The position numbers and the translations under genes are program-made. The notes beneath the pieces are model-generated. The model had not been told where the DNA came from and ran no database searches. It saw only the letters and a list, made by a program, of their open reading frames with translations. A DNA stretch of 64,000 nt, taken from positions 1 to 64,000 of the forward strand of contig PHBY01000020.1 of assembly GCA_002840735.1 (NCBI GenBank). Reading direction: 5' to 3'. The stretch comes from Chloroflexi bacterium HGW-Chloroflexi-2 (GTDB lineage Bacteria > Chloroflexota > Anaerolineae > Anaerolineales > Anaerolineaceae). Shown in pieces: positions 16,083 to 56,544 of the stretch (the stretch's first letter is position 1; every line of letters begins with the position of its first letter).

Positions 16083-19000
16083 ATGGATTCGAGATCTGAT
16101 ACCAAAAAATCGCGATTGATTTATCTACTTATCACCTCCGTGGTTATTTTTGTTGTCCTGGTGGCAGGCAGACAACTTTGGAGACAGGTCCATAATAACC
16201 TGCAGGATGAGCTTCTGTATCGCTCTGAAAGTTTTTCCAAAACGATAAACCTGATGGAATTAAATAAACTTTCTGGAACAATCGCAGATATCGATCTCCC
16301 GGAATATCAAAGACTCAAACACCAATTGATATTGTCTCGTCAATTGATCCCCAACAATTGCTCCATCTATCTGATGGGAAAAAATATGAATGGGTCGGTG
16401 TTCTTTTATGTGGATTCGGAAACACCAGGTTCAAAAAACGAATCACACCCCGGACAAACCTATGATGATGATTACGGCACAGTCAAGAATGTTTTTTCCA
16501 AAGGATTATCTGAAATCTCAAAACCGGTAATAGACGATAGGGGCACCTGTGTTAGTGCACTCGTGCCCTTATATGATCCAAATTCAGGCGAGGTTTTGGC
16601 ATTATTCGGTGTGGATATTGATGCCAAACAATGGAATCAGAATATTCTAAATATCCTGCTTTTGCCTTACGGTTTCTTAGTTCTCCTATTTTTATTTGTC
16701 CAGGTTTCGATTTTATTCTTCAGTTTTAGAAAGAATTTACCACCACGAGTGCAAAAATCCTGGATTAATACCCATGCTGAATTTTTCTCCTTATTTATTT
16801 TTGGGTTGCTGGTTACATCTATATTAACCTGGCAAGAGATTGACACGAAGGAAAACAACAGAAAAACTACATTTGAAAATCTGGCCGCTTCACAAGCCGG
16901 TTATGTTCTGAGTTATTTTCAAGACATTGAAAAATTTCATCTGGCTGGATTGGCTAATTTCTTTGAATCCAGCCAATATGTTGATCGCGATGAATTTAGT
17001 CGGTACACCGCTGCGTTGGCGATTGATCCTAAAACTATGGCATTGGAGTGGATTCCCGAAGTGCCTGCCAGTGAATTAAAGATGTTCGAGGAGCAAGCCA
17101 GTATAGAAACCGGATCAGATTTTAAAGTCTGGGAATTATCGGAAGACAGGCAACGCATCCCGGTACTGGAACGAGAATTTTATTACCCGGTTTACTATGT
17201 CAACCCAAGGATCGAAAATGAATACGCTTTGGGATTTGATATGGGCTCGGAGACCAATCGAAAAGCGATGTTAGATACCGCTTTCAATACCGGGTTGATA
17301 ACAGCATCCGACCCAATTATTCTGGTTAATGATTTGAGACCGCAGATTGGGATTCTGGTTACAAGATCAATTATTGACAGAGAAAAAGCATCGAATCAGA
17401 ACGGATTTATTCTGGTTGTATTACGCATGGAGAATTTACTTGAGAGTGTTTTGAGTGTGTATGGAAACCAGGATCCATTTTTGTACATCGATTTATTGCA
17501 ATTAAATTCAGATTTATTTCCAACATACTTAGCGGGAAATTCTCCTGAAGAAATTTCCCTGGCGCATATTCGAAATGAACATCATGATCACCTTTACTCT
17601 GATCTGACATTTTACCAGCCTATATTTGCATTTGGAAAAGCATATGAATTGATTATTCATCCAAGTGGATCGTTTATGAGTACCTACCCTATTCGAGCTG
17701 GTTGGATTACTGCTGTTATAGGCACTTTATTTTCGTTATTAATTGCAGGTGTGTTTTATCTATTTCTTTCCAGAGGTCGTCATCTGGAATCGATGGTTGC
17801 CGATCGAACCTCTGACCTTGCTTTGAGTGAACAAAAATATCGCAACCTGGCTGAATCAACCAGTGCTGTGTTATGGGAATATGACATTAAAAATGACAGA
17901 TGGTCATATGTTGCACCCCAGATCATGAATATGACGGGTTGGCATCCAGATGATTTTACAAATTTACAATTCTGGACTGAGCATCTCTATCACGATGATC
18001 AAAAGTGGGCACCGGCCTTTCGAGCAGATTTTTTGGATCGAGGGGACGACTTCGAGTTTGAGTATCGCTTCTTGAAACCAGATGGCAGTTATCTGTGGAT
18101 CCGAGATGTAGTAAGCGTAGAAATCAAAGAAGGCATACCGATATTTTTACGTGGTTATATGCTGGATATCACAAAAAAGAAGGAATCAGAAAACCAACTG
18201 CGAATGCAAAGCTTGGCACTATTTACCTCGGCGAATGCGATCATAATTACTGATAAACAGGGTGTCATCGAGTGGTCAAACCCTGCTTTTTCTGAACTTA
18301 CCGGGTACACTCTGGAGGAATCAATTGGGAAAAAACCACGAGAATTATTATTTTCCGACATTCAAAAACCGGAGTTTTATGAAATCATGTGGAAAACCAT
18401 TCTGTCCGGTAACCCATGGCGGGGAGAGATCGTCAATCGAAAAAAGAATGGCAATTTGTACAGCGAAGAAATGACCATTACACCATTAAAAGATGAGAAC
18501 GGGCTGATTACCCACTTTATCGCGATCAAACAGGATATCAGTGAACGCAAGCAACATGAATTAGAAATGCAAGCCATTGCAACGATCAGTTCGGTACTGA
18601 GGACAGCTGAAACCAGGGCAGAAATGAATCCAATTGTTTTGGAAAAATTAGGTGAGATTTTTAAAGCTGATGGCGCTTCATTGGTAATTCGAGATAAGGT
18701 GACGAATGAAACTGTGCTGGAGGCTGCCATTGGCGTTTATGAGAGCACATTAGTTGAGCGTTTACCACCAGGTATCAGTGTTTCAGGAAAAGTGATCCAG
18801 AGTGGTGATGTTTTTATCACCGATGATATTTCCCAAGAAAAGGATATTGTCTGGTCGGATGCTTTTGATATTACCAGCGCGATTGTATGTGTACCATTAA
18901 TGATTGATGGTACTCCTATCGGCACTTTGACGATAGGCCGCGTTTACCCATTTCAAACGATGGAAGTGCGATTATTAACTTCTATTGCGGATATTGTCGC

Positions 19001-39961: not shown

Positions 39962-40066
39962 ACTACTTAAATCCAAAGTGTGGGAGAAGGGTGTTTGAAT
40001 GATTTGGGTTGCTCTGCAACCCAAATCATTCAAACACCCGGGTTTAATCGCTTGATTTAAGTAGAA
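39962..40066. repeat. Nested palindromic element, copy 3 (variant)
   Basis: A 24-bp perfect inner stem at 39989-40012 and 40016-40039 starts GGGTGTTT like the other two copies but continues GAATGATTTGGGTTGC. It is enclosed by an imperfect outer repeat ending in CTACTTAAATC at both sides. It lies upstream of hppA and next to the left edge of the phage-derived cassette. Confidence 0.7.
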
Positions 40067-40335: not shown

Positions 40336-40710
40336 ATGGCGAAAAGATCAGTAGCACGACCAATCCCAAATGAGCCCATTGTAGAGATGGATGCCAATCC
40401 CATAATTGCGGATGAAGACCTTCCGACGACCGAATCAGATCTGGATGAAATCATCGCCCTTTTACGCCAGGCTATCTGGAAATATCACGAACTGGTTGAA
40501 AAAGGAGAACCTGAACTGGATCAGTATGGCAATTCGCTAGAGATTATCGGAAAAGCCGGCGCACGTTTGGGGCGTTTGATTGAGATCCGTAAAAAATGGA
40601 GCGGAGCAGAAGATGGCAAGGATAAATTCCGTAAGGAAGTATTGCAATTGATTCATGAACTTGATCAAACCATGCCGGTCCGGGAAAAAAACGATGCTGA
40701 CAGCAATTGA
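40336..40710 (+). CDS. Small acidic/helical protein, possible small terminase subunit
   Basis: The 124-residue protein has an unstructured N-terminus and a helical body, DLDEIIALLRQAIWKYHELV, then LGRLIEIRKKW and LIHELDQTM. It has no recognisable family. Its gene overlaps the start of the large-terminase gene by 17 bp, the usual place for a small terminase subunit; that role is inferred from position only. AAAGGA stands 5 nt before ATG 40336. Confidence 0.5.
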   Translation: MAKRSVARPIPNEPIVEMDANPIIADEDLPTTESDLDEIIALLRQAIWKYHELVEKGEPELDQYGNSLEIIGKAGARLGRLIEIRKKWSGAEDGKDKFRKEVLQLIHELDQTMPVREKNDADSN

Positions 40711-42226
40711 CAAGAAAGTCATGATTAACACGCTGACCGATCCCTGCCGCTTTGCTGCCCTGGGAGGGATTGTGTTGCGAGAATACCAGCAGGCTGTTGC
40801 CTATGCCATCAGTATATCTGTGTTGGGTGATTGTGGTCATTCCTTTGTGGTCATGTTTCCCCGCCAGAGTGGTAAGAACGAACTGCAGGCCCAGTTAGAA
40901 GCCTTTTTCTTGATGCGATTCATCCACACTGGCGGGGAACTGGTCAAAATCTCACCGACCTGGAAACCACAGAGCCAGAACGCCATGCGACGTTTGCAAC
41001 GTGTGCTCAGCCGGCACCCCTTATTACAGGAGGATTGGCAGAAAGATTCGGGTTATCGCTTCAGTGTGGGAAAGGCGAGTATCACCTTCCTATCCGGTTC
41101 ACCCGAAACCAATATTGTCGGAGCGACCGCCTCAACGCTGTTGCAGGTGGACGAAGCCCAGGACATCTCGCTGGAGAAGTACGACAAGGAGATTGCTCCT
41201 ATGGCTGCCAGCACCAACGCCACGCGCGTCTTCTGGGGTACGGCCTGGACGGAGGACACCCTGTTGGCCAGGGAGTTGAGACTGGCGCAGAAAATCGAAA
41301 CCTATGATGGTACTCGCCGGGCATTTGTATTGACGGCTGATGAGGTTGCCCGCGAAGTGCCAGCTTATGGCAAGTTTGTGCAAAAACAGATCGCCATGCT
41401 CGGAAGGGATCATCCGCTGGTGCGTACCCAGTTCTTCTCGGAGCTGCTGGAGAATGGCGGCAGGCTCTTCCATGATGGACGATTGGCAATGCTGCGGGGG
41501 GAACACGCACTGCAAACCACCCCACAAGCGGGGCAGATCTATGCCTTTTGTCTGGATGTAGCCGGGGAAGATCAGGGTTTGAGTAGCTCCGGGGTGATGA
41601 GCAACCCCCAGCGGGATTTCAGCGCTTTGACGATTGTCTCTATCTTTAGCCGGCCAACCGCCTGGGGCTTGCACCAGAATCATTACCGGATCGTCCATCG
41701 CAAAGCCTGGCAGGGGATTGCGCAAAGCAGCCTGTTTGAGCAATTGCTGGCGCTGACCAGGTTCTGGAACCCAAGACAATTCGTGGTGGATGCCAGTGGG
41801 GTGGGTGCCGGGATCGCTTCCTTCCTACAGCGTGCTTTACCTGGGCGGGTGATCCCATTTCAATTCACGGCCGCCAGCAAGAGCCGCCTGGGCTGGGATT
41901 TTCTGGGACTGATCGACAGTGGTCGCATCCAGGATCACCGCGATGTATCGGAGGAGCAAAGTCAGTTCCTGGCGCAAGCCCGTGCCTGCAAATCCAGTAT
42001 TTCATTGGGACCGGAACGGCTGTTACGCTGGCAGGTACCGGCTGGCACCTGCGATCAGCAGGGACGCGAAGTGCACGACGATTGGTTGATCTCAGCAGCC
42101 CTGTGCGCTGTGCTGGAATCGCATAGCATACAGGCGGGTCAACCCACCTCCATCATCTCTGCTGCAGACCCCCTGCAGGAGATGGATTTCAAATTCAGCA
42201 ACAAACGAAGCCGAAAAGGCTACTAA
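40694..42226 (+). CDS. Phage-type terminase large subunit
   Basis: The protein of about 510 residues has a packaging-ATPase half: Walker A-like FPRQSGKNE (Lys61), an Arg/Gln-rich region and Walker B LLQVDEAQDI. It is followed by FWGTAWTEDTLLARE. The nuclease half has FCLDVAGEDQ and FVVDASGVGAGIA, which provide acidic metal ligands of an RNase H-like fold. It would translocate and cut DNA at the portal encoded next. It overlaps the preceding gene. The sequence is intact, with no frameshift. Confidence 0.85.
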   Translation: MLTAIDKKVMINTLTDPCRFAALGGIVLREYQQAVAYAISISVLGDCGHSFVVMFPRQSGKNELQAQLEAFFLMRFIHTGGELVKISPTWKPQSQNAMRRLQRVLSRHPLLQEDWQKDSGYRFSVGKASITFLSGSPETNIVGATASTLLQVDEAQDISLEKYDKEIAPMAASTNATRVFWGTAWTEDTLLARELRLAQKIETYDGTRRAFVLTADEVAREVPAYGKFVQKQIAMLGRDHPLVRTQFFSELLENGGRLFHDGRLAMLRGEHALQTTPQAGQIYAFCLDVAGEDQGLSSSGVMSNPQRDFSALTIVSIFSRPTAWGLHQNHYRIVHRKAWQGIAQSSLFEQLLALTRFWNPRQFVVDASGVGAGIASFLQRALPGRVIPFQFTAASKSRLGWDFLGLIDSGRIQDHRDVSEEQSQFLAQARACKSSISLGPERLLRWQVPAGTCDQQGREVHDDWLISAALCAVLESHSIQAGQPTSIISAADPLQEMDFKFSNKRSRKGY

Positions 42227-42260
42227 ATTTCAGTATCAGAAAGCATGACGAGGAGAAAAT

Positions 42261-43625
42261 ATGAATTGGATTGAACGATTACGACAATTTTTTACCTGGC
42301 AACACCGCCAACGGCTGGAGACCATCCCGGCTTTGCCCTTCAACCTGCTGCCGTATGAATCGCGCGACCGGCTGCCATACGACCAGCAGACCATTTTGCA
42401 AGAATCCCTGGAAGCCTGGCGCAGCAACCCGCTGGCACGCCGGATTGTGGGACTGACCAGCCAATACGTGGTCGGGGGTGGGGTGCGCATCACCTGCAAC
42501 CACCCGGGCAGCGAGCAATTTCTGAAGAACTGGTGGGAGCACGAACTCAACCAGTGTGCCTTGCGCATCTATGAATGGTGCGATGAGTTGACCCGAGCTG
42601 GAGAGCTGTTCTTTTTACTCTCCACCGATGCTGCCGGGATGACCTACATTCGTGCGGTACCGGCAGCCCAGATCAGTGCGATTGAGACAGCTGAGAACGA
42701 TTTGCAACAGGAGCTAGCTTACCACCAGCAATTGGACGGGTTGGGTGAGGAACACACCTGGGCAGCTTATGACAGTCGCAGCGATTCCCCAGACCAGGCG
42801 GTGATGCTGCATTTCGCCATCAACCGCCCTCCCGGCGCGGTACGTGGGGAGAGTGACCTGGCACCCTTGCTGGTGTGGTTGAACCGCTACGCCATATGGC
42901 TGGAGGACAGGGCACGCCTGAACCGCTATCGCAACGCCTTTTACTTCGTGGTCAAGTCGCGCTTTTTGAGTGAAGCTGAACGTGCGGCCCGGCAGTCTGT
43001 CCTGAACGCCGTTCCACCCACGCCAGGCTCAATCCTGGTGACGGATGAATCGGAGCAGTGGGAGGTGATCCACCCACGTCTGGAGAGTCACGAAGCCAGC
43101 ACAGACGGTCTGAGCATCAAGAAGATGATCGCCGCCGGTGCCGGGGTACCACTACACTTCCTGGCGGAACCGGAATCCTCCACGCGCAGTACAGCCGAAG
43201 CTGCCGGTGGACCAACCTTTCGGCATTTTGAGCAAAGGCAGCTGTTCTTCAGTGAGATATTGCGCCAGCTGGCTGTGGTCGCCGTGCGCCGTAGAGCCAT
43301 GCTGGACAGGCGGGTGGATCCCGAAGCCAGCATTCAGGTGCAGGTAGCCGATTTGAGTGCCCGTGATAACGCCGCCCTGGCCATCGCCACGCAGGCTGCC
43401 AGCCGCACTTTCTTCGATCTCTTCGACCGTGGCTTGATCAACCGCGAAGAACTGCTGCGCATGGTCTACCGTTTTGCCGGGGAGGTGCAGTCGCAGGAAG
43501 CCCCGGCCATCGATCTGGATGATCCGGCGCGCCAGGCAGTCGGTAGTGGCGGAGGGGGACAACAGCGCTCCAGCAAGGTGATTGACCCCGAACAGGCAGA
43601 ACCACGTGGGGTGGCCAGTTTGTAA
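42261..43625 (+). CDS. Phage portal protein
   Basis: This 454-residue protein resembles portal proteins of tailed phages. It has NPLARRIVGLTSQYVVGGG, ELTRAGELFFLLSTDAAG, VMLHFAINRPPGAVRGESD, LVWLNRYAIWLEDRARLNR and STRSTAEAAGGPTFRHFEQRQ. Portals are dodecameric rings at the capsid vertex through which DNA is packaged. It directly follows the terminase gene with ribosome binding site GAGGAG. The Gly-rich C-terminus is probably flexible. Confidence 0.85.
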   Translation: MNWIERLRQFFTWQHRQRLETIPALPFNLLPYESRDRLPYDQQTILQESLEAWRSNPLARRIVGLTSQYVVGGGVRITCNHPGSEQFLKNWWEHELNQCALRIYEWCDELTRAGELFFLLSTDAAGMTYIRAVPAAQISAIETAENDLQQELAYHQQLDGLGEEHTWAAYDSRSDSPDQAVMLHFAINRPPGAVRGESDLAPLLVWLNRYAIWLEDRARLNRYRNAFYFVVKSRFLSEAERAARQSVLNAVPPTPGSILVTDESEQWEVIHPRLESHEASTDGLSIKKMIAAGAGVPLHFLAEPESSTRSTAEAAGGPTFRHFEQRQLFFSEILRQLAVVAVRRRAMLDRRVDPEASIQVQVADLSARDNAALAIATQAASRTFFDLFDRGLINREELLRMVYRFAGEVQSQEAPAIDLDDPARQAVGSGGGGQQRSSKVIDPEQAEPRGVASL

Positions 43626-43686
43626 ACAGGAAAGGAGGTTTCAGCACATCAACCGATATGACCCTATTAAAAGGAAAGGAGAAGCA

Positions 43687-45594
43687 ATGACAGAAGAAGT
43701 AGAACAATTTCGAACGCGGGTACAGCTACAGGACTGGAACCCGGCAACGACAGACAACGAAGAACACAACACACAAACAGCAGTTTTTGAGGTGACCGCC
43801 ATCACGGCCGGCATTGGCAATGGCTGGAACTTCACCCAGGAAGCCTTGCGCGCCTCGCTGGGGTTGTGGGAAGGGGTGGAGGTCTTCATTGACCACCAGC
43901 AGCCACAGACCCACCGCAGCCTGCGCGATCTGGCAGGGGTGGCGTATGCCGCTCGTTATGACGAAAGCTGCCAGGGGGTGGTATTGAAGCTCAAGCCGTC
44001 CGGTCCCAGCGCGGAATTGCTGGAGCAGGTTGGAGCAGAATGGCTGGGAAGTCCATCGCCACGCCCCCGGGTGGGGTTCAGTGCCGATATCGTCTTCAGC
44101 GCCAGCGGCAAGATCGTCAAACAAATTATCAAAGTCATCAGTCTGGATCTGGTCTATCGCCCGGCAAGAGGTGGGGCGTTCAACCGGGTCTTACAACAAC
44201 AAATTCAACCAATGGAGGAAAAAATGCAAAACGAAACAACGCAATTAAGTGAATCAACCGCAAGCAGCACAGTGGAAAACCAACTCTCGCTGGAGGTGCA
44301 ACAAATTAAGAGTAATCTTCTGGAACTGAAATTAAAGGAAAGCAACCTGCCTGAACCGGCGCAGAGCCAGGTGCGTAAACAATTCGAAAGCCGCCAGTTC
44401 GCTCTGGAAGAACTGGATCAGACCATTCAATCCCAGCGCGAACTCGTGGCAGCTTTGCAGGGACGCAGCGGTATACATGGTGCTGGCAGAATCGAGGAAA
44501 TGCGCTCGGAGCGCGACCAGTTGCAGGCAGCGGCCGATGATTTACTGGGTGCCCCACGTGAAGCCAGCATGGAGAACACCCGGGTAGCACGCCTTTCCGG
44601 CATTCGCGAATTGTATCTGCGCATGACCGGGGATGTGGACTTCCATGGCAGAATGTCCGCTGAGCGTGCCCAGCTGGCAGATAGTGACAGCCTTTCGAAC
44701 GTGCTCAAAAACAGCTTCAACAAGATCATGCTGCAGCAGTGGGAACAGCTGGGTAAAGCCGGCTATCGCTGGTGGGAGAAGGTGGTCAAAGTAGAGCACA
44801 TGGGCTCGTTGCAGACCGTCAGCGGTATTCTGCTGGGTGAGGTCAGTGCTCTGGGTGTAATCTCGGAAGGCGCTGCGTATGGAGAGCTAGAGATCAGTGA
44901 CAGTGGCGAGAGCAACACTTTCCGTAAGTATGGCGGCCTGTTGCCGATTACCCTGGAGATGATTGACAAGGACGAGACACACAAACTGCGCCAATTGCCA
45001 CAAAAGCTGGCATCCAGCGCTATCCGTAATATCTCCAGTCTGGTGGCAGGATTGTTCAGCAGCAGCAGTGGCACCGGACCCATCATGGCGGATGGCGCGC
45101 ACGTCTTTGATGCCATTGTGCATAACAACCTGGGTACTACCGCATTGAGCACAACCAGTTTTGAAGCTGCCAGCCAGGCTATCTACCAGCAGAGCATGAT
45201 CTCGAACGACACCACCAAACCGATGCTGGCAGTGGATGCCCGTTATTTACTGGTGCCACGGGCTTTGCGCCTGACCGCACGCCAGATCCTGTACCCGACC
45301 TTTGAACGCGAGAGCAATATCTTCTCGGAGAATATGCTGCGCGGAGAACTGGGCGATGTGATCACCGTACCGGATTGGACCGACGCCAACGATTGGGCTG
45401 CCATGGCCGACCCGAACCTGGTGCCTGGCATCATCATCGCCGAGCGTTTTGGCTTGATGCCGGAAATCTTTGTGGCCGATCAGGAAGTGGGCTTTGATAT
45501 GCTGCACAATGACACGATCAATTTGAAGGTGCGGCATTTCCTGAGCGTGTTCGTGGCGGATTACCGGCCGTTGTATAAGGCCAATGTAGCCTAA
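43687..45594 (+). CDS. Fused prohead protease and major capsid protein
   Basis: The protein of about 635 residues combines three parts. Residues 1-165 resemble a capsid maturation protease: VFEVTAITAGIGNGWNFTQ, a candidate catalytic His in EVFIDHQQPQTHR and Ser in PRVGFSADIVF. Residues about 170-300 are a Glu/Gln-rich coiled coil like a scaffolding delta domain. Residues about 310-635 resemble a Mu gpT-like major capsid protein, with MLAVDARYLLVPRALR and VPDWTDANDWAAMADPNL. These activities are usually in two or three genes. AAAGGAGAAGC supports ATG 43687. The single gene is unbroken, and cleavage between the parts is likely. Confidence 0.75.
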   Translation: MTEEVEQFRTRVQLQDWNPATTDNEEHNTQTAVFEVTAITAGIGNGWNFTQEALRASLGLWEGVEVFIDHQQPQTHRSLRDLAGVAYAARYDESCQGVVLKLKPSGPSAELLEQVGAEWLGSPSPRPRVGFSADIVFSASGKIVKQIIKVISLDLVYRPARGGAFNRVLQQQIQPMEEKMQNETTQLSESTASSTVENQLSLEVQQIKSNLLELKLKESNLPEPAQSQVRKQFESRQFALEELDQTIQSQRELVAALQGRSGIHGAGRIEEMRSERDQLQAAADDLLGAPREASMENTRVARLSGIRELYLRMTGDVDFHGRMSAERAQLADSDSLSNVLKNSFNKIMLQQWEQLGKAGYRWWEKVVKVEHMGSLQTVSGILLGEVSALGVISEGAAYGELEISDSGESNTFRKYGGLLPITLEMIDKDETHKLRQLPQKLASSAIRNISSLVAGLFSSSSGTGPIMADGAHVFDAIVHNNLGTTALSTTSFEAASQAIYQQSMISNDTTKPMLAVDARYLLVPRALRLTARQILYPTFERESNIFSENMLRGELGDVITVPDWTDANDWAAMADPNLVPGIIIAERFGLMPEIFVADQEVGFDMLHNDTINLKVRHFLSVFVADYRPLYKANVA

Positions 45595-45601
45595 AGGCAG
45601 G

Positions 45602-45678
45602 GGTTTGGGATTAGGGGTTAGGTGTTAGGGATTTGGATTCAGGATTCAGATTTGAGGATTGAGTTTTGAGTGTTGAGG
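45602..45678. repeat. Degenerate heptamer repeat tract (11 units)
   Basis: The tract divides exactly into 7-mers such as GGTTTGG, GATTAGG, GGTTAGG, ATTCAGG, TTTGAGT and GTTGAGG. It starts 7 bp after the capsid gene stop codon. Confidence 0.8.
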
Positions 45679-45737
45679 TTTTTTTCGTAGGGGCGTGTTC
45701 TGAACCCGCCCGTACGGGGAACGCATTGGATGGACGC

Positions 45738-45797
45738 GTAGGGGCGTTCGGTTGTAGGGGCGTTCGGTTGTAGGGGCGTTCGGCCGAACGCCCCTAC
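45738..45797. repeat. GTAGGGGCGTTCGG palindrome with two extra half units
   Basis: Two 16-bp copies (45738 and 45754) of GTAGGGGCGTTCGGTT precede a complete 28-bp perfect palindrome at 45770-45797. The same palindrome recurs at 50643, 54017 and 56517. It lies between the capsid and holin genes. Confidence 0.85.
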
Positions 45798-45826
45798 CGG
45801 GTGACATTTACGAAAGGAGAAAAAAC

Positions 45827-46018
45827 ATGCAGAAATGGAAATTGTTATTGGGGTCTCGGAAATTTTGGGCGGCGGTGATCGGGTTGGCCTTTTTGGTGAT
45901 CCGGCATTTTGACCCGGCCTTTGAAGTGCCCGAGAATGAGACGATTGCGGTTGTGTCGGTGTTGGCAGCCTATATTCTGGGTGTGGCTGTCGAGGATGGG
46001 TTGAGAGCTGACCGCTGA
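45827..46018 (+). CDS. Holin-like small membrane protein
   Basis: This 63-residue protein has two hydrophobic stretches (KFWAAVIGLAFLVI and IAVVSVLAAYILGVAVE) and charged ends. It lies just before a lysozyme gene, so a holin role is likely. AAAGGAG precedes the ATG. Its last codons, from 46000, consist of the first units of a heptamer repeat tract, and the stop codon lies inside that tract. Confidence 0.6.
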   Translation: MQKWKLLLGSRKFWAAVIGLAFLVIRHFDPAFEVPENETIAVVSVLAAYILGVAVEDGLRADR

Positions 46019-46111
46019 CGGCTCATAGCTCATGGCTGATGGCTGAAAGCTGACGGCTGACAGTTGAAAGTTGAAAGGCAAAAGGCTAAAGGAAAAAGGC
46101 TAAAGGCTATT
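46000..46111. repeat. Degenerate heptamer repeat tract (16 units), entering a coding end
   Basis: Sixteen exact 7-mers run from GTTGAGA through GCTGACC, GCTCATA, GCTGAAA and GTTGAAA to GGCTATT. The first three include the holin gene stop codon at 46016-46018. Confidence 0.85.
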
Positions 46112-46131
46112 GAGAAAAAAGTGATTATCGG

Positions 46132-46166
46132 GATTTTTGGGTGGATGGTTTTTCCATCCAAAAATC
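46132..46166. terminator. Hairpin between holin and lysozyme genes
   Basis: GGATTTTTGGGTGGATGG pairs with CCATCCAAAAATCC, with a small bulge, around a T-rich loop. It ends about 8 bp before the lysozyme ribosome binding site. Confidence 0.45.
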
Positions 46167-46182
46167 CTATAAAGGAGATTCT

Positions 46183-46992
46183 ATGTTTGATCGATATTGT
46201 CTGGGGGTGGATGTGTCGTCCTGGCAGGCCACCGTCCATTGGGAAAAGTTGTATGAAAATGGGGTGCGCTTCGCGATCATCAAAGCGTCGCAGGGCAGCT
46301 ACCGGCAGGACCCGCTCTGTCCTTCGCATCTGAAAGCAGCCCAGGCAGCCGGGATGCTGTGTGGCGTCTATCACTGGATGGACCCCGGCTGCGCCGTGAA
46401 TGCCCAGATCAGCAACCTGGAACACCGCCTGAAGGGGCTGGATTACGCCTTTCTGGCGCTGGATGTGGAGCAATACTGGTCGGATTGGGGTGAATGGCAG
46501 AAGGGCTCGATCAGCAAGCGCTATCCCGGCAAGCTGATCAGCGACTGCGCGCAAGCCTGCGCCGATGCCATGCAGGCGAAGTTCCAAAAACCGGTGCTGA
46601 TCTACACACGCGCCAGTTTCGTCAAAGAATATGCCCCGCAGATGGCGGAATGGTTGCCGAACTGGGATTTGTGGCTGGCGCATTACCCCTACCGCCCTGG
46701 CAGGATTCACCTGAGCTGGGAGCAGTTGAAAAAGCACTACGTACCAGGCATCCCGGCACCCGCGGTACCGGAGGGCAGCAAAAACTGGCGCTTCTGGCAA
46801 TTCTCGGGGGACAAGTTCATCCTGCCGGGGGAACAATCTGCGCTGGATTTGAACTTCTATCATGGCAGCCTGCAGGATCTGCAAGCCTGGCTGGGGCAAC
46901 CTCAAACTCCGCGCAGTCTGAGCCTGGAGGAGAAACTGGATGCCCTCTGGCAGGCGCATCCCGAGATTTGGCAGGAGGTGGAAAATGTCTAG
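46183..46992 (+). CDS. GH25-family lysozyme (endolysin)
   Basis: The 269-residue protein has the GH25 pattern: YCLGVDVSSWQATVHW, FAIIKASQG, GVYHWMDPG and FLALDVEQYW, in which acidic residues cleave the N-acetylmuramyl bond. NWRFWQFSGDKFILPG is near the end of the barrel. It has no signal peptide and follows a holin-like gene, so it fits a phage endolysin released by a holin. AAAGGAG precedes ATG 46183. It overlaps the next gene by 8 bp. Confidence 0.85.
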   Translation: MFDRYCLGVDVSSWQATVHWEKLYENGVRFAIIKASQGSYRQDPLCPSHLKAAQAAGMLCGVYHWMDPGCAVNAQISNLEHRLKGLDYAFLALDVEQYWSDWGEWQKGSISKRYPGKLISDCAQACADAMQAKFQKPVLIYTRASFVKEYAPQMAEWLPNWDLWLAHYPYRPGRIHLSWEQLKKHYVPGIPAPAVPEGSKNWRFWQFSGDKFILPGEQSALDLNFYHGSLQDLQAWLGQPQTPRSLSLEEKLDALWQAHPEIWQEVENV

Positions 46993-47290
46993 AGCAACCC
47001 GCAAGAGTAAAGTACCGCTAAGTCCGAAACCCGTGAAGAAAATCAGCGCATTGCCCGTTGTGGTTGCCAACCTGGCAGCTGAATACGGGATTGATCCGGC
47101 AACCCTGCTGGATTGGAAGGTATACCCGAGCGGCAAAGTGGTGCTGATTGCCCCGAATGGTATGAAGCTGGTGCGCGAGATGGATGCGCCTGCGTCTCTC
47201 CATCCCACCGCAGAAGACAACCAGGTTGTACCCACGGAAACGAGTTTTGCGGCCGACGCTGCAGGGATTGGAGGTGCGCATGAGCGTTAA
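46985..47290 (+). CDS. Small hypothetical cassette protein
   Basis: This 101-residue basic-to-neutral protein has a Lys/Arg/Pro-rich N-terminus and a central LAAEYGIDPATLLDWKVYPSG region, possibly a small helix-turn-beta fold. No family is recognised. It overlaps the lysozyme gene by 8 bp and the connector-like gene by 11 bp. Such packing is typical of phage operons and supports that it is expressed. Confidence 0.5.
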   Translation: MSRATRKSKVPLSPKPVKKISALPVVVANLAAEYGIDPATLLDWKVYPSGKVVLIAPNGMKLVREMDAPASLHPTAEDNQVVPTETSFAADAAGIGGAHER

Positions 47291-47684
47291 TCTGACGTCT
47301 TTGACAGCGCGCTTGCAGGTGCTGCTGGATGATCCCGACGAGGCCATCTGGTCGGGTACGTTGCTGGAGGAGTGCATCCGGCTGGCAGTTGCGGAGGTGC
47401 AGCGCGTCTGCCCGTATGCGCTGACGATTGCCGGGTTGGATGATGCTATGGAGAGCAATCTGGACCAGGACCTGCGCCTGAGCCCGTTGGTGCTACAGCT
47501 GGCCCAGCGACAGGCATTGCGTCAACGCCAGGTGCAGCGTAGCGAACGCTTTCATCCCGACCCCCAGCGCTTGCGCCAGGAACTGCTGTCTCCTGTATCG
47601 GATGAAGGGTTTCAGTCGGTTCTGGATCAGGTGCGACGCTATTTTTTGCAACGCAGCAGCACCAGCCCAATTGATTTTTACTAG
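47280..47684 (+). CDS. Head-tail connector-like small protein
   Basis: The 134-residue mostly helical protein reads VNLTSLTARLQVLLDDPDEA, then LLEECIRLAVAEVQRVCPY and LSPLVLQLAQRQALRQRQVQ. The pattern of a short helical protein following head genes resembles head-tail connector/adaptor proteins. Identity is tentative. GGAGG lies just before ATG 47280. A 16-bp perfect hairpin follows the stop codon. Confidence 0.5.
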   Translation: MSVNLTSLTARLQVLLDDPDEAIWSGTLLEECIRLAVAEVQRVCPYALTIAGLDDAMESNLDQDLRLSPLVLQLAQRQALRQRQVQRSERFHPDPQRLRQELLSPVSDEGFQSVLDQVRRYFLQRSSTSPIDFY

Positions 47685-47691
47685 AAAATCA

Positions 47692-47727
47692 TTGTTATTC
47701 GCAGGATGCAAATCCTGCGAATAACAA
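47692..47727 (+). terminator. Strong hairpin inside the phage-like cassette
   Basis: TTGTTATTCGCAGGAT at 47692-47707 pairs perfectly with 47712-47727 around a 4-nt loop. There is no clear U-run. It separates the connector-like gene from the tail-like genes and may process or attenuate the transcript. Confidence 0.55.
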
Positions 47728-47748
47728 AGAAACATTTTTGGAGGTTCA

Positions 47749-49062
47749 ATGAAACGACTTGCTATAATAATTAACCAGGACGAGTTTGTGCTGCATGGCT
47801 CGGGTAGCGCGCTGGCTTTGCGGGGTTGCCAGCGCCACCCATCGCAACGCTTACCCTCCGGGCTGAGCCTGGAGAAACTCGATCTGATCGTGCAGGGCAC
47901 TGCTACGCAAACACGCGCTCTGATCTCGCAGTTACAGATGCTGGTGGAACGTATGCGCCTGGGTCATAGCGCCTGGCTGGCATTGCAACCGGACGACAGC
48001 GCGGCGGTGTACCACAGCCGCTTGTATGCTGCGGATTTCAACTGGATTCTGGGTAGTGTGCAGGCTAAGGGGATCGGCATCCGCCTGGAATTGCAGCGCC
48101 AGGACTTCTGGCAGCTACCCTGGCAACCGCTGGCGCTGAATAACAGCCACGGCAGCGCGGTGACGGACGGTTTGCAAATCGATAACCGCGCTGACGGAAA
48201 CGGGCAGAACTGGTGCTGGATCGCCGGGGAGGGGCTGCTGGGGGATTTACCGGCTCTGGTGCGCCTGCAGTTGCAGCATGACCTTAACCCGGTTGAGAGC
48301 CTGAATCAGATCCTGGTGGGTTGGGGCAGCGCAGTCGCCACACCGTTGGCTGTACTGGAAGGGGAAAGCGCGGATAGCCTGCTTAACTTTGGGGTGGTGA
48401 TGAACAGCAGCTGTCATGCCGGTGCCTATGGGCTGGTGCAGTGGGACAATCCTGATGCCATACGGGTGCTCTCGTGGGTGTTGCCGGGATCGGCGTTCGC
48501 CGGTATAGCTGGCCGGCAGGTGCGCCCGTTGGTGCGGCTGGTCAACCCGGTGGGTTTGCGCCCTGAAACCTGGCTGAGCTGGAAGCTGTATCATGGCAGC
48601 CTGGTCTTTCAGAGTGGCACCCAGCTGCTTTCCCTGGAGCGTGAACTGCAACTCCTGCCGATGATCTGCCTGCCAACACTATCCAACGCAGATGTGCCCT
48701 GGAGTGACTTGCGTCTGGATCTGTATGCCCACAATCGCAACGCGGGTACGACCCATCTGGCACTGGATGCGGTCTTCCTGTTCTACACAGATGGCTGGCG
48801 GCAATTCGCAGCCCTGCCGGATGGTGAACTGGCTTTCGGGCAGACGTTGATCGATGCCGTTGATCAGCAGCAGCCATATATCCATCTGGCCCAAACCCAG
48901 AAAAACCAGCACGCCTACCAGGGGATTGGGAATGGACTGTGGCTGCTACCCGGGCAGGATCATGTGCTGCAGATGCTGGTGGATGTCGGTATCAGTATGC
49001 CGCTGGGCATGAACTATCACATTCAGCTGGAATACCAGCCACGCCGCAGGATGTTGCCATGA
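47749..49062 (+). CDS. Tail-like structural protein
   Basis: This 437-residue protein has an N-terminal region with LRGCQRHPSQRLPSGLSLEK and several beta-rich segments, and no membrane helix. The size, position and beta-rich composition suggest a distal tail or baseplate protein, but no catalytic motif is seen and the family is not recognised. GGAGG precedes the ATG. Its stop codon overlaps the ATG of the next gene (ATGA). Confidence 0.55.
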   Translation: MKRLAIIINQDEFVLHGSGSALALRGCQRHPSQRLPSGLSLEKLDLIVQGTATQTRALISQLQMLVERMRLGHSAWLALQPDDSAAVYHSRLYAADFNWILGSVQAKGIGIRLELQRQDFWQLPWQPLALNNSHGSAVTDGLQIDNRADGNGQNWCWIAGEGLLGDLPALVRLQLQHDLNPVESLNQILVGWGSAVATPLAVLEGESADSLLNFGVVMNSSCHAGAYGLVQWDNPDAIRVLSWVLPGSAFAGIAGRQVRPLVRLVNPVGLRPETWLSWKLYHGSLVFQSGTQLLSLERELQLLPMICLPTLSNADVPWSDLRLDLYAHNRNAGTTHLALDAVFLFYTDGWRQFAALPDGELAFGQTLIDAVDQQQPYIHLAQTQKNQHAYQGIGNGLWLLPGQDHVLQMLVDVGISMPLGMNYHIQLEYQPRRRMLP

Positions 49063-50543
49063 AACCACAGGTTGTTTTTTCAGGTAATCATCGGCAAGGA
49101 ATGTTGCAATCGGGGGCTGATTGGCAGGTGCAATCCATGGATTGGCGCATACCGGGTGGCTCGAACGCAGCCGTCATCTCTGCCCCGGTTCAGGATCCGA
49201 ATGCGATCAGCCTGCGTCTGATCCGCTCCTGGCTGGGGCAGGCAGTCAGCATTCACAACCCGGCCGGGGAGATCATCTGGCGTGGCTGGATCGAAGAGAT
49301 CCACCTGGATGTGCAGCGCCTGCGTTTTGGCTGGTCCACCCAGAAACTGCTCAGCCGGGTGATCGCGCGCTACCCGCAGGCCAGCCCGTTGCTGGATCCC
49401 TTGAGCAGCTGGCAATATACGGATTGGGTCGAGCATCCCGAACGCCTGGAACATCTGGGTGCCAAAGAAGCCCTGCTCAGCCTGCGCGAGGTGGATCCCA
49501 ATAAAGCCCGGCATGCGGCTGTCATGCATCTCTTCCAACAGGGACTGGACGACAGCCAGGCGTTGGTGTTGTTGCCGGAGAAACGAGCTCCCCACCTGAC
49601 CATGCGCCTGAAGGGCTACTGGTACAGGCTGGACTGGACGCTGGATGGCGAAGAGAGCGGTCTGATTGCGCATCTGCACGGCGGCAAGAGCCAGCAATCC
49701 TTTGGGCTGAGTGGTAGTGAACGCCTGGCGCAGAGTTTTACCACCGGGGCGGAGGCCTTTCCGCTGGGGCAGATAGGCCTGCGCATCGCCATGCTGGGGG
49801 CGGCCAGCGATGACCTGCGCCTGAAGATCTGCGCGGATAACGTGGGTGTCCCGGGCACGGAACTGGCCAGCAGCCTGCTACCGAATGCCTATCTGCAGGG
49901 TGGTTGGAAGTGGCAGGCATGGATATTGGATGCTCCGCTGGCATTGAACGCCAACACGCGTTACTGGCTGGTGCTGGAGCGCAGCGGCGCCCTGGATAGT
50001 AGCCAGTATTATGAAGTCGAGACGGATGATGGCCGCGGTTACCCGGACGGTGAATGCAAGCGCTGGAACGGCAGCAACTGGATCTTGCTCAACCAGGATC
50101 TGCGCTTCTGCCTGCTGGCGATGACGGAGACGACCGAATTGATGCTCGAGGTGGGGGAACGGGCTGTGCTGGGTGGCGTGCTGCAGGGGGTGCAGATCTG
50201 GCAGGAGAGTGATGTCTGGATGCCACGCTGGCGTGAGATCGAAAAGACCCGCAAGGAAGCATTGGAGGGTTGGCTGGCGCTGGGTTGCGCGGATGAGAGC
50301 TCGTTGAGCGCGCTGGTGAATGCGGATGGCGTGCTGGAGGTGTTTAGATTGCCCAGGGAGATGGAACCGCTGTTGCAATTGGATGCAGAGGGGAGATTGC
50401 GTTTACCGTACGGGAATGCGGACGCACATCCATTGGATTTGCTGGGCAGAAGGATGCAATTGCCGTTGATGGAAGCGGAGCAAACGCAGGTGGTAAGGGG
50501 GTTGCGCTGGACGCAGGAGGGGTTGGAAATCGTTGACAGTTGA
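49059..50543 (+). CDS. Tail/adsorption-like protein with a jelly-roll-like domain
   Basis: The 494-residue protein has an N-terminal baseplate-like part (IIWRGWIEEIHLDVQRLRFG). A central region (about residues 215-360) reads QSFTTGAEAFPLGQIGLRI, then NVGVPGTELASSLL and LNANTRYWLVLERSG. The central part resembles choice-of-anchor/CBM-like jelly rolls found in surface-binding proteins. A role in contact with a cell surface is inferred. It overlaps the previous gene by 4 bp, and its final codons run into heptamer-type repeats. Confidence 0.55.
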   Translation: MKPQVVFSGNHRQGMLQSGADWQVQSMDWRIPGGSNAAVISAPVQDPNAISLRLIRSWLGQAVSIHNPAGEIIWRGWIEEIHLDVQRLRFGWSTQKLLSRVIARYPQASPLLDPLSSWQYTDWVEHPERLEHLGAKEALLSLREVDPNKARHAAVMHLFQQGLDDSQALVLLPEKRAPHLTMRLKGYWYRLDWTLDGEESGLIAHLHGGKSQQSFGLSGSERLAQSFTTGAEAFPLGQIGLRIAMLGAASDDLRLKICADNVGVPGTELASSLLPNAYLQGGWKWQAWILDAPLALNANTRYWLVLERSGALDSSQYYEVETDDGRGYPDGECKRWNGSNWILLNQDLRFCLLAMTETTELMLEVGERAVLGGVLQGVQIWQESDVWMPRWREIEKTRKEALEGWLALGCADESSLSALVNADGVLEVFRLPREMEPLLQLDAEGRLRLPYGNADAHPLDLLGRRMQLPLMEAEQTQVVRGLRWTQEGLEIVDS

Positions 50544-50631: not shown

Positions 50632-50681
50632 CATTCGGTCATGTAGGGGCGTTCGGCCGAACGCCCCTACATGACCGAATG
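50632..50681. repeat. 50-bp perfect palindrome extending the 28-bp family
   Basis: The 28-bp core at 50643-50670 (arm GTAGGGGCGTTCGG) is extended by CATTCGGTCAT at 50632-50642 and its reverse complement at 50671-50681. It lies after the last cassette gene. Confidence 0.85.
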
Positions 50682-51172: not shown

Positions 51173-53875
51173 TTACACCGTACGAATATCCAAAAATCCC
51201 GATCCGGTCAGGGGGATTTCAAGGACGCCAGGATAGCGCAGGTAGGGTTGGATAGGGTTGCCTTTCCAGTGGACGCTGTAGGTGTGATCCGGATGCATCA
51301 CTGCGATCGCCAACCAGGGGTGGTCTGCGGTGGGATGTTCCAGGGTTGCCTGCAGGGAGGTGTGGTCTGCAGCAACGGTCAGGGATTCAATCCAGGTGTC
51401 GAAGCCGCAGGTGAGCGTGCCGGGTTGATGGTAAGCCTGGTACCAGGCCAGCACCGGGGTGGAAAGTCCGCCGAAGTGGTGCCATCCCGACCCACGTCCG
51501 GAAGCCACGATGAAGTGCTCGAAGCAGTGGTAGCTCTCCTCGACCTCGCTTTTCCACAGTTCCAGCGCGGTGTACGCGATTCGAAAAGCCAGGTCAGCAT
51601 GCCCCAGGTCGAGCAGGGCTTTCCACAGGAACCATTGGTAGGGGAACCAGACCGTACCGTTCCAGTAGCCGTCTTCACGGTAATATGGCGCGCTCTGATC
51701 GACTGACACCAGACCGATCGGGCTCCACATGTGCCGTGGGGAGAACATGCGCTCCAGGATGCGCTGGTCCTGCTGTGGGGTGCAGATGTCGGCGAACAAC
51801 GGGCTGATGCCGTCCAGACCCAGGTTGAAGTTTTCCCCGCTGGCATCCCGCAGGATTTGTTTGGGCTGCCCGTTCTCATCGTGGAGGACGTAACTGAAGA
51901 CCCCGGCGACTGCGTCCCAGGCGTGCTGCTGCAGCGCATCCGTGAAAGCATCGATATCGGCCTGATAGTCGCTGACATCCTCCGGCAGGTACAAGGCTCG
52001 GGCGGCTTGCTGCAAGATTTTGGCAGTGCGGATGGCATGCGCAGTTGTGACCACCGGCGTAGCGCAGCTTTCCAGTTGCTGCTGGTGGACATGCACCTGC
52101 GCGGGGTAATCATCCCAACCGGCGGAGTTGTAGAAATAATCCCAGGTCTTGAGCAGGTTGGATTTCAGGCTGCGGGTGGTGGAGCTGCCCAATCGTCCAG
52201 CCAGGAACAGGTACATCTGGCGCAGACGCGGATAGAAGTACTCCAGCAGCTCGTGGGATTGGGTGCGGTTCCACAGTTCCTGAAGAGCATAAATTTGCAC
52301 CGGGACCGGGCTGCCATGATGGATGAAAGCAGCCTGTGGGTCACTGGGCGGGGTGGTGTAAGCATGTAAGCAGTCGATGGCGTGCGTCAGGTCGATGGAC
52401 TGCAAACCCAGGCTGATGAAGCCGGAGTCCCAGGTGTACAGGCAGTCCCAGCGCTTGCCGGGGGTGAAGTGGTGGATATAGCGGCGGCGGGTGTAAACCG
52501 GGTAGATGACGTTGGTAAGCAGAGTGGCTGCCATGCGTTCCAGGCTGAATTGGTAGGTTTGCCCGGCGGGATTGCTTACGAAGGACACTACCTTTTCACG
52601 TGCGCTTTGATAGGCGTTTTTCAGTTCGGGGTCGGCGGGGTTAAAGTATTGGAGGAGATCGCGCACACCGGCTTCCTCTCCCTGACAAACCAACCCGTAG
52701 ATCACCAGCGTGGAACGTGGCGGTAGGATCACTGGGCGGATGAAAATATTGGTAAAATGCCCGGCACCATCGGTCGTGATCTCCTTTTTCACGTGGTCGG
52801 TCACATAATAAGGCAGGCTGCGATCGATTTCAGAGGAGAAGAATTGGCGCACCTCGGAATGTTTCCCGCCCCAGGCCAGACCGTAGGTGGTGGGAGCGTC
52901 GTCGTACTGTAATAACAGGGTGTTCTCTTTGGGTCCGGTTTGTAAGACCGGCAGCGGGTTCCAATGGTGAGGGGAGAATCGCACCTCAGCCTGCCTGGAG
53001 GATTCCAGTAGCACAAACCCATCCAGTTCGAGGGCTGCGCCACCCTGTGAGACCAAATCGAAGGTCAGTTTGCCAGCGGGTACAACACCCAGCTTGATGG
53101 GCAAAAGGGAAAAGTCCCCTGATTGCGGGAATACAACCTGCTCGCCGGGCAAGTCGTGAGCGCTGAAGGTCACCTGTCCTTCTGTTGCCCGGTAACGCAC
53201 CAGCAACACTCCATCCATCAGCGCATCTGGCAGACTGAGCGTATAACAGACTCGATCACCTGCATCGGCTCCAAATCCTGTACCAATCCCACTGCCATTC
53301 ACAAAACCATGCTCCCGCACCTCACCGCGGGTCCAGCCGTCATACACCAGGGTATCGCTCGGGCGCGGGATGGCGTATTGCAGGTCGCAGTAATCGAGCG
53401 CATCAAGCCAGAGCGCGCCGGGTGGCAAGTGCACATCGCAGTGAATGAGGGACTCTTCCGAATAGGCTTGCAAGGGTGGAAAATTCAGGTAGGCCATGTA
53501 GTGCAATACCGTATGCTGTGGGTGGGAGGTGTTGTTGACGAACTCGCAGCGCACCACCCGGGTATTGAGTTCCTCCCCGGGGTAGGGAAAGAAAGCCACG
53601 TCACAATAGACCTGGTCCTTCCATTCAAGTTCGTAGCGATAGGAAAAATAGTCCAGACCGGGCGCGGCTTCCCAGGGGTGGTAACCGGACTCCCACTGTG
53701 TGTGCGGGACTGTGACACGGTGGCGGTAATAACCCGGGAAAACGCTCAGGTCGAAACGGATGCCTTTTGTAGTGTCGGGAATATGCGAGATGCCGTTGTA
53801 CTTCTTGCTGTAGGGTCCCCAGGCAGGGAGGCGTAGGTCATGAGAGAAAGGATGGGGAAGATCATTGTTGGTCAT
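51173..53875 (-). CDS. Large GH63/MGH1-like glycoside hydrolase
   Basis: The 900-residue protein has an N-terminal beta-sandwich half and a C-terminal (alpha/alpha)6 barrel beginning at about residue 450. Barrel motifs are WDCLYTWDSGFISLG, GWDDYP, YYREDGYWNGTVWFPYQWFL and SYHCFEHFI. These resemble the MGH1-like/GH63 clan, where Asp and Glu act as acid and base. It probably removes alpha-linked glucose or related sugars. No signal peptide is visible, so it is likely cytosolic. It is GC-rich like the phage cassette that precedes it, and heptamers lie just beyond its 3' end. Confidence 0.75.
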   Translation of the reverse strand: MTNNDLPHPFSHDLRLPAWGPYSKKYNGISHIPDTTKGIRFDLSVFPGYYRHRVTVPHTQWESGYHPWEAAPGLDYFSYRYELEWKDQVYCDVAFFPYPGEELNTRVVRCEFVNNTSHPQHTVLHYMAYLNFPPLQAYSEESLIHCDVHLPPGALWLDALDYCDLQYAIPRPSDTLVYDGWTRGEVREHGFVNGSGIGTGFGADAGDRVCYTLSLPDALMDGVLLVRYRATEGQVTFSAHDLPGEQVVFPQSGDFSLLPIKLGVVPAGKLTFDLVSQGGAALELDGFVLLESSRQAEVRFSPHHWNPLPVLQTGPKENTLLLQYDDAPTTYGLAWGGKHSEVRQFFSSEIDRSLPYYVTDHVKKEITTDGAGHFTNIFIRPVILPPRSTLVIYGLVCQGEEAGVRDLLQYFNPADPELKNAYQSAREKVVSFVSNPAGQTYQFSLERMAATLLTNVIYPVYTRRRYIHHFTPGKRWDCLYTWDSGFISLGLQSIDLTHAIDCLHAYTTPPSDPQAAFIHHGSPVPVQIYALQELWNRTQSHELLEYFYPRLRQMYLFLAGRLGSSTTRSLKSNLLKTWDYFYNSAGWDDYPAQVHVHQQQLESCATPVVTTAHAIRTAKILQQAARALYLPEDVSDYQADIDAFTDALQQHAWDAVAGVFSYVLHDENGQPKQILRDASGENFNLGLDGISPLFADICTPQQDQRILERMFSPRHMWSPIGLVSVDQSAPYYREDGYWNGTVWFPYQWFLWKALLDLGHADLAFRIAYTALELWKSEVEESYHCFEHFIVASGRGSGWHHFGGLSTPVLAWYQAYHQPGTLTCGFDTWIESLTVAADHTSLQATLEHPTADHPWLAIAVMHPDHTYSVHWKGNPIQPYLRYPGVLEIPLTGSGFLDIRTV

Positions 53876-54016: not shown

Positions 54017-54044
54017 GTAGGGGCGTTCGGCCGAACGCCCCTAC
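54017..54044. repeat. 28-bp perfect palindrome, third copy
   Basis: Arm GTAGGGGCGTTCGG and its complement are exact. Codons of a truncated DsrE-like gene start within 3 bp of its right edge. Confidence 0.9.
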
Positions 54045-54950: not shown

Positions 54951-55109
54951 GTAGGGGCGTTCAGCCGAACGCCCGTACACCGGCCGAATGCACGTACAAT
55001 ACCGAACGCCCGTACACCAGCCGAACGCCCGTACACCAGCCGAACGCCCGTACACCAGCCGAACGCCCGTACACCAGCCGAACGCCCGTACACCAGCCGA
55101 ACGCCCGTA
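54951..55109. repeat. 19-bp tandem repeat array derived from the palindrome family
   Basis: Five identical copies of CCGAACGCCCGTACACCAG run from 55002 to 55096, followed by a 13-bp partial copy. Degenerate copies lie at 54964-55000, and the array opens with GTAGGGGCGTTCAG, a half of the 28-bp palindrome. There are no unique spacers, so it is not a CRISPR. Confidence 0.9.
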
Positions 55110-56516: not shown

Positions 56517-56544
56517 GTAGGGGCGTTCGGCCGAACGCCCCTAC
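56517..56544. repeat. 28-bp perfect palindrome, fourth copy
   Basis: Exact copy with arm GTAGGGGCGTTCGG, between a small membrane-protein gene and the SRPBCC gene. Confidence 0.9.

Follow-up and report, generated by a model that had tools for sequence, protein, structure and literature searches.

Gene transfer agents (GTAs) are defined by particles whose cargo is for the most part random host DNA, which have no room for their full gene set and which deliver the DNA to recipients. A TerS (small terminase) in which no DNA-binding domain is detectable has been noted for known GTAs. Characterised GTAs have tails, and a tail tube is common to them, while lying outside the strict definition of the group; they are well known from a few lineages only. 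The alphaproteobacterial type I GTAs (RcGTA and the Rhodogtaviriformidae) are encoded by a compact head cluster comprising the terminase large subunit (TerL), portal, prohead protease and HK97-type capsid, and are marked by host-tracking vertical inheritance, elevated GC content and the lack of integrase or replication genes. BaGTA (Bartonella), BhGTA (Brachyspira) and Dd1 (Desulfovibrio), the last with short-tailed particles, are independently domesticated DNA-packaging particles. BaGTA requires a larger gene set, of 29 genes, and some Bartonella particles have been described as tailless or short-tailed (PMC9662315). GTAs look like broken prophages, their genes can be scattered in the genome, and their true spread is considered an open question (PMC11841831). 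For the Chloroflexota, Chloroflexi or Anaerolinea, we found no relevant title or abstract on a GTA-like element in the open-access literature.

Here we analyse a phage-derived cassette in a 64,000-nucleotide stretch of DNA (hereafter the window) from Chloroflexi bacterium HGW-Chloroflexi-2, a member of the Anaerolineaceae. We regard it as probable that the cassette is a vertically inherited, domesticated phage derivative of this family, most likely a GTA-like viriform, tube-less, that would package and deliver host DNA. If true, the phylum, for which our literature search gave no such description, would hold an independently domesticated and old element for packaging DNA; the cassette is present in most of the sampled genera of this abundant anaerobic family, among them that of a cultured host, Anaerolinea thermolimosa.

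Gene content of the cassette and its phage relatives

A sequence-only reading of the window had listed terminase, portal, protease-capsid, holin and GH25 lysozyme genes, unbroken and on one strand, and had recorded that integrase, repressor, replication, tail-tube and tape-measure genes were missing. The open reading frames, taken from a simple ORF picker, and the family matches agree with that list: all are intact, closely packed and on the plus strand at the coordinates originally reported, and none of the missing gene classes was recognised in the cassette. The features are as follows.

40336–40710, plus strand: gene a, small terminase-like (TerS-like) protein of 124 aa, placed before TerL; the TerS role is presumed
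40655–42226, plus strand: gene b, terminase large subunit (TerL); PHROG 5909, E 3e-8
42261–43625, plus strand: gene c, portal protein; PHROG 10963, E 1.8e-27
43687–45594, plus strand: gene d, prohead protease fused to HK97-type major capsid protein
45738–45797, no strand: dispersed palindromic repeat (GTAGGGGCGTTCGG...), outside the particle gene set
45827–46018, plus strand: gene e, holin; PHROG 9987/297, E 1e-4 / 3e-4
46141–46992, plus strand: gene f, GH25 lysozyme (endolysin); PHROG 291, E 3.6e-30; Pfam PF01183, 4e-28
46940–47290, plus strand: gene g, small conserved protein, role unassigned; motif LLDWKVYPSGKVVLIAPNGMK
47274–47684, plus strand: gene h, head-tail adaptor-like, by position and homologs in 64 loci
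47749–49062, plus strand: gene i, predicted distal tail protein (Dit) fold with an inserted carbohydrate-binding-like beta-sandwich (about 198–347)
49059–50543, plus strand: gene j, predicted tail hub of the gp27/VgrG/Tal type with an inserted carbohydrate-binding-like domain (201–357)
45770–45797, 50643–50670, 54017–54044, 54951–54978 and 56517–56544: window sites of a 28-bp palindrome, five within 11 kb

Gene f could start at 46183 instead of 46141, and the start of gene g is probably 46985. The upstream neighbour is a divergent gene for a proton-pumping pyrophosphatase (HppA, named from its sequence) and the downstream neighbour a convergent MGH1/GH63-like glycoside hydrolase gene (51173–53875). 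In the related locus L032 only a fragment of this hydrolase gene is seen (16819–17226).

Family searches against Pfam and PHROGs back genes b to f, including gene d (PHROG 133, E 4e-33; PF25209, Phage_capsid_4, E 2e-29), and gave no significant match for a, g, h, i and j. The protein of gene a is short and has no recognisable DNA-binding domain, and its homologs occupy the same position in nearly all family loci. Packaging residues are conserved across more than 40 genomes: the TerL Walker A motif (P69–N75), the Walker B residues D166–E167 and the putative nuclease residues D301/D379/D475-476 are kept in at least 93% of 42 sequences; for H70 and S132 of the protease and for the GH25 acids the share of aligned sequences is likewise 93% or more. 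The lysozyme gene varies in position by genus, lying ahead of the portal gene or behind that of the holin or h, and is usually retained; it was not found in the cassette of some genera (e.g., g5 in part). Gene h, with no match to a PDB sequence either, may encode the head-tail adaptor. Homologs of g in the distant class relatives L048, L054 and L055 bear an extra N-terminal C2H2-like zinc motif, and in distant class relatives the g homolog sits between portal and capsid.

The nearest true-phage relatives found, Microcystis phage Mae-JY22 and the IMG/VR contigs L109 and L111, show 24–32% identity in portal and capsid and differ from the cassette in being genomes or contigs of 41–56 kb. Mae-JY22 and L109 differ further in having a recognisable tape measure after the capsid, and L109 also a major tail protein. 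Since both of these retain tail genes at that position, the cassette most simply arose from one in which the middle part of the tail was deleted, and we consider such a loss plausible.

As expected of a GTA, the cassette retains intact phage structural and packaging genes, and no replication or integration genes of its own were recognised in it. It shares the compact head cluster of RcGTA, and is unlike RcGTA in its fused protease-capsid, its internal lysis genes, its lack of tube and tape measure, its presence in another phylum and, apparently, its descent from another phage ancestor. BaGTA, BhGTA and Dd1 would be comparable as independent domestications.

The missing tail parts could also be encoded elsewhere in the genome, in which case a GTA-like element would receive tube and tape measure in trans and build an ordinary long tail. 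Scattered genes have precedent among GTAs, as noted above, and in genus g4 the cassette itself is dispersed, split over 25 kb. We nevertheless think this explanation quite improbable, given that the two Pfam models used to seek tail genes elsewhere, PhageMin_Tail and Phage_sheath, whose coverage of tape measures and tubes is incomplete, had no match in the whole host genome, and that a PhageMin_Tail gene, by a model that misses some tape measures, is absent from six of the eight genomes of the genus.

Conservation, selection and descent within the Anaerolineaceae

Homologs of the portal are present in 102 of 147 genomes of the Anaerolineaceae, in 52 of the 64 near-complete ones and in 29 of 40 genera, nearly always as a single copy per carrier genome, so that the cassette is not absent from relatives. 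The cassette is carried by the cultured Anaerolinea thermolimosa (L039), and of 298 genomes taken from the class, 57 have the capsid. Across about 40 loci of the family, each of some 8–11 kb, the order a, b, c, d, e, h followed by a two-gene end module is mostly kept, and no long tail module was seen in the cassettes inspected. The host genome has a second complete copy spread over two contig ends, with a–e on C27 (L041) and f–j on C34 (L134); this second lineage is also present in two other genomes of the genus and branches with the first copy inside the genus, within which the cassette occupies at least two different sites.

Comparison of the window with L032 (ratios from NG86 values) yielded dN/dS of 0.08–0.25 for nine of the ten genes, indicating purifying selection: about 0.25 for a, 0.12 for b, 0.09 for c, 0.08 for d, 0.15 for e, about 0.08 for f, 0.13 for h, 0.12 for i and 0.22 for j, with 0.37 for g and, outside the cassette, 0.03 for HppA. 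Together with the conserved active sites, these ratios indicate that the cassette has been selectively maintained. Stops within the portal match are found in about 10 of the 102 genomes. In L033 (10001–11893), the capsid frame of the first of two cassette copies is interrupted by a stop at residue 68, and the second copy is open.

Descent was assessed against rpoB, a single marker, as the species reference. All nine multi-member genera are monophyletic both in the rpoB tree and in the tree of TerL, portal and capsid; 21 of 37 splits are common to the two (mean 0.23, maximum 3 in 500 random relabellings), and the Mantel r is 0.61, as opposed to a maximum of 0.31 in 5000 permutations. With one sequence per genus, r is 0.22, a value reached by 708 of 5000 permutations and not significant, in line with the poorly supported backbone of the rpoB tree. 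Because this comparison is not significant, the case for deep vertical descent rests on the flanks that genera have in common. A divergent TadG-TadE pair lies upstream of the cassette in g2, g194, g204, g206 and g207, a GH1 gene flanks it in g3, g209 and g204, and a common secreted-type protein does so in g2, g5, g204 and g207; the HppA flank is common to the window, L032 and L033. Congruence with rpoB within genera and common flanks between them point to vertical transmission in the host genome. TadE/TadG-like pilus or surface genes adjoin the cassette, in two arrangements, in L034–L036, L038, L042, L138, L144–L146 and L149, and a functional link to it, as receptor or in DNA uptake, is possible.

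These observations bear on the alternatives offered by the sequence-only reading, which had proposed either a defective prophage or a co-opted particle. That the cassette is a recent and inert defective prophage we consider extremely improbable: tail and lysogeny genes are indeed missing, and a few copies in relatives are decayed, yet the patchy occurrence and decay expected of such a remnant are not what we observe, since the cassette is found across the family, is intact in most cases, evolves under purifying selection and agrees with rpoB within genera. The proposal of a co-opted particle, in the form of a GTA-like one, is on the same grounds and those of the flanks between genera the part that we retain.

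A mobile satellite, or a minimal phage, relying on a helper for its tail would account for the small size, the duplicated copy, the use of different sites within the genus and the matches in the IMG/VR viral collection. Against it, no integrase was recognised, the tree is host-like and the flanks are common to several genera. In the capsid tree, the family forms a group separate from the phage contigs with tail genes, and none of the IMG/VR contigs placed within the family clade exceeds 18 kb; the longest of these, L098, holds the whole cassette between flanks unlike phage structural or replication genes. We therefore judge a satellite very unlikely.

Predicted tail-tip proteins and the layout of the particle

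Models of proteins i and j built with AlphaFold (AF2) from 25 family sequences had pLDDT values of 90.9 and 88.2, respectively. By structural alignment, the model of i matches solved Dit proteins with Z of 10.4–11.9 over 215–248 residues, the alignments spanning residues 1–437 and taking in an N-terminal tube-like domain and a beta-sandwich; the highest value was obtained with SPP1 Dit (Z 11.9, 215 residues), followed by tip proteins of p2, Douge and monocin (Z 11.2–11.3, 225–248 residues). The model of j matches hubs of contractile injection systems, VgrG, diffocin and phages (Z 13.5–16.0 over 219–232 residues, spanning 1–494), and both tube-like hub domains are present. The models thus bear out the two tail-like genes of the earlier reading, i having a predicted Dit fold and j a predicted hub fold of the gp27/VgrG/Tal type, and because of these folds the cassette would end in a tail tip, not in a tube. 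The insert of i, taken alone, has matches to carbohydrate-binding modules (CBM) that score as high as its Dit matches, and the best match of the j insert is a phi812 baseplate protein (Z 19.0). Matches of i and j to Cry-toxin and viral-capsid folds were set aside, as they concern these carbohydrate-binding-like inserts. At the level of sequence, PDB searches with h, i, j, the portal and the k170 protein (see below) gave nothing usable; an alignment-based pattern scan for phage relatives of i and j found none, no stretch being conserved enough, and searching with j alone yielded just one phage match, a weak one.

The end module differs between genera. The i-j pair is found in g1, g2, g3, g5, g208 and g209, while g4, g190, g194, g204, g206, g207, g211, g215, g219, g220 and g222 have two proteins unrelated to it, k170 and k430, in its place or, in rearranged loci, elsewhere nearby. 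Both kinds of module occupy the same site beside divergent TadG-TadE (i-j in L042; k170-k430 in L138, L144–L146 and L149), which indicates that the end module was exchanged with the head genes in place. In more than half of the genera, the k170 and k430 families (L129, L138, L139, L146, L149) take the place of Dit and hub; no relative of either family was found in this analysis.

The predicted folds of i and j are like those of SPP1 and p2 Dit and of the T4 gp27, VgrG and Tal hubs, which cap a tail tube in their own systems, whereas the cassette has no tube gene. We know of no precedent for a Dit and hub stacked on an adaptor without a tube. We tentatively suggest, at somewhat less than even likelihood, a family-wide GTA of the Chloroflexota without tail tube and tape measure, its baseplate docked straight on the head. 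That baseplate would, with the same reserve, be formed by Dit and hub or, in sister genera, by the unrelated two-protein module at the same locus, and the result might perhaps be described as a long-tailed phage turned into a short-tailed machine by loss of its middle part. In the particle of our main reading, TerL would load DNA through the portal into an HK97-type head, and the adaptor-like h would cap and close the portal; the Dit ring and hub, both built on tube-like folds, would stack directly on h as a stub tail, and the carbohydrate-binding-like domains of i and j may recognise glycans of the cell surface and attach the particle there. Holin and GH25 lysozyme would release the particles. 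The packaged DNA would be that of the host, delivered to kin, given the vertical inheritance, the retained packaging motor and the lack of replication genes, which is the standard argument for GTAs. A tube-less layout, if true, would bear on how little tail DNA delivery needs.

A domesticated particle could also do another job without gene transfer, such as lysis, the release of protected DNA for a biofilm matrix, or the killing of neighbours. The evidence of conservation applies to such a particle just as to a GTA-like one, and the lack of a delivery tube, the retained lysis genes and the carbohydrate-binding-like tip domains would suit it. We hold it unlikely all the same, as the conserved portal and the conserved ATPase and nuclease residues of TerL would be needless in a mere lysis or killing device, and as the Pfam and PHROG family searches revealed neither a toxin nor an effector gene in the cassette. 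For a GTA-like element without integrase, replication or regulatory genes and with no sign of self-spread, packaging and delivery of host DNA would be the most likely use.

GC content and dispersed repeats

The GC-rich island reported for the window holds on measurement: GC content is 0.567 in the cassette and 0.457 in the window as a whole, and among 44 related loci there are 43 in which the cassette is richer in GC than the flanks. The high GC of RcGTA-like clusters stems from positions 1 and 2 of the codons and from low-carbon residues (PMC7360931). Unlike in the Rhodogtaviriformidae, the excess in the cassette is present at all codon positions, is largest at position 3 and is not tied to low-carbon residues; the low-carbon amino-acid signature of RcGTA was not seen, and the carbon content of the capsid is not clearly lowered. 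The explanation given for RcGTA does not carry over.

The repeats between capsid and holin genes had been proposed to mark where head-tail genes were lost. They contain the palindrome GTAGGGGCGTTCGGCCGAACGCCCCTAC, and this 28-bp element occurs in perfect or near-perfect form (exact or with two mismatches) at 12 sites of the genome, five of which are in the window. As REP-like palindromes dispersed through the genome, the repeats were rejected as scars of lost genes, and any loss of the tail middle is not marked by them. A perfect 24-bp inverted repeat with a 3-bp loop lies between HppA and the cassette, at 39989–40039.
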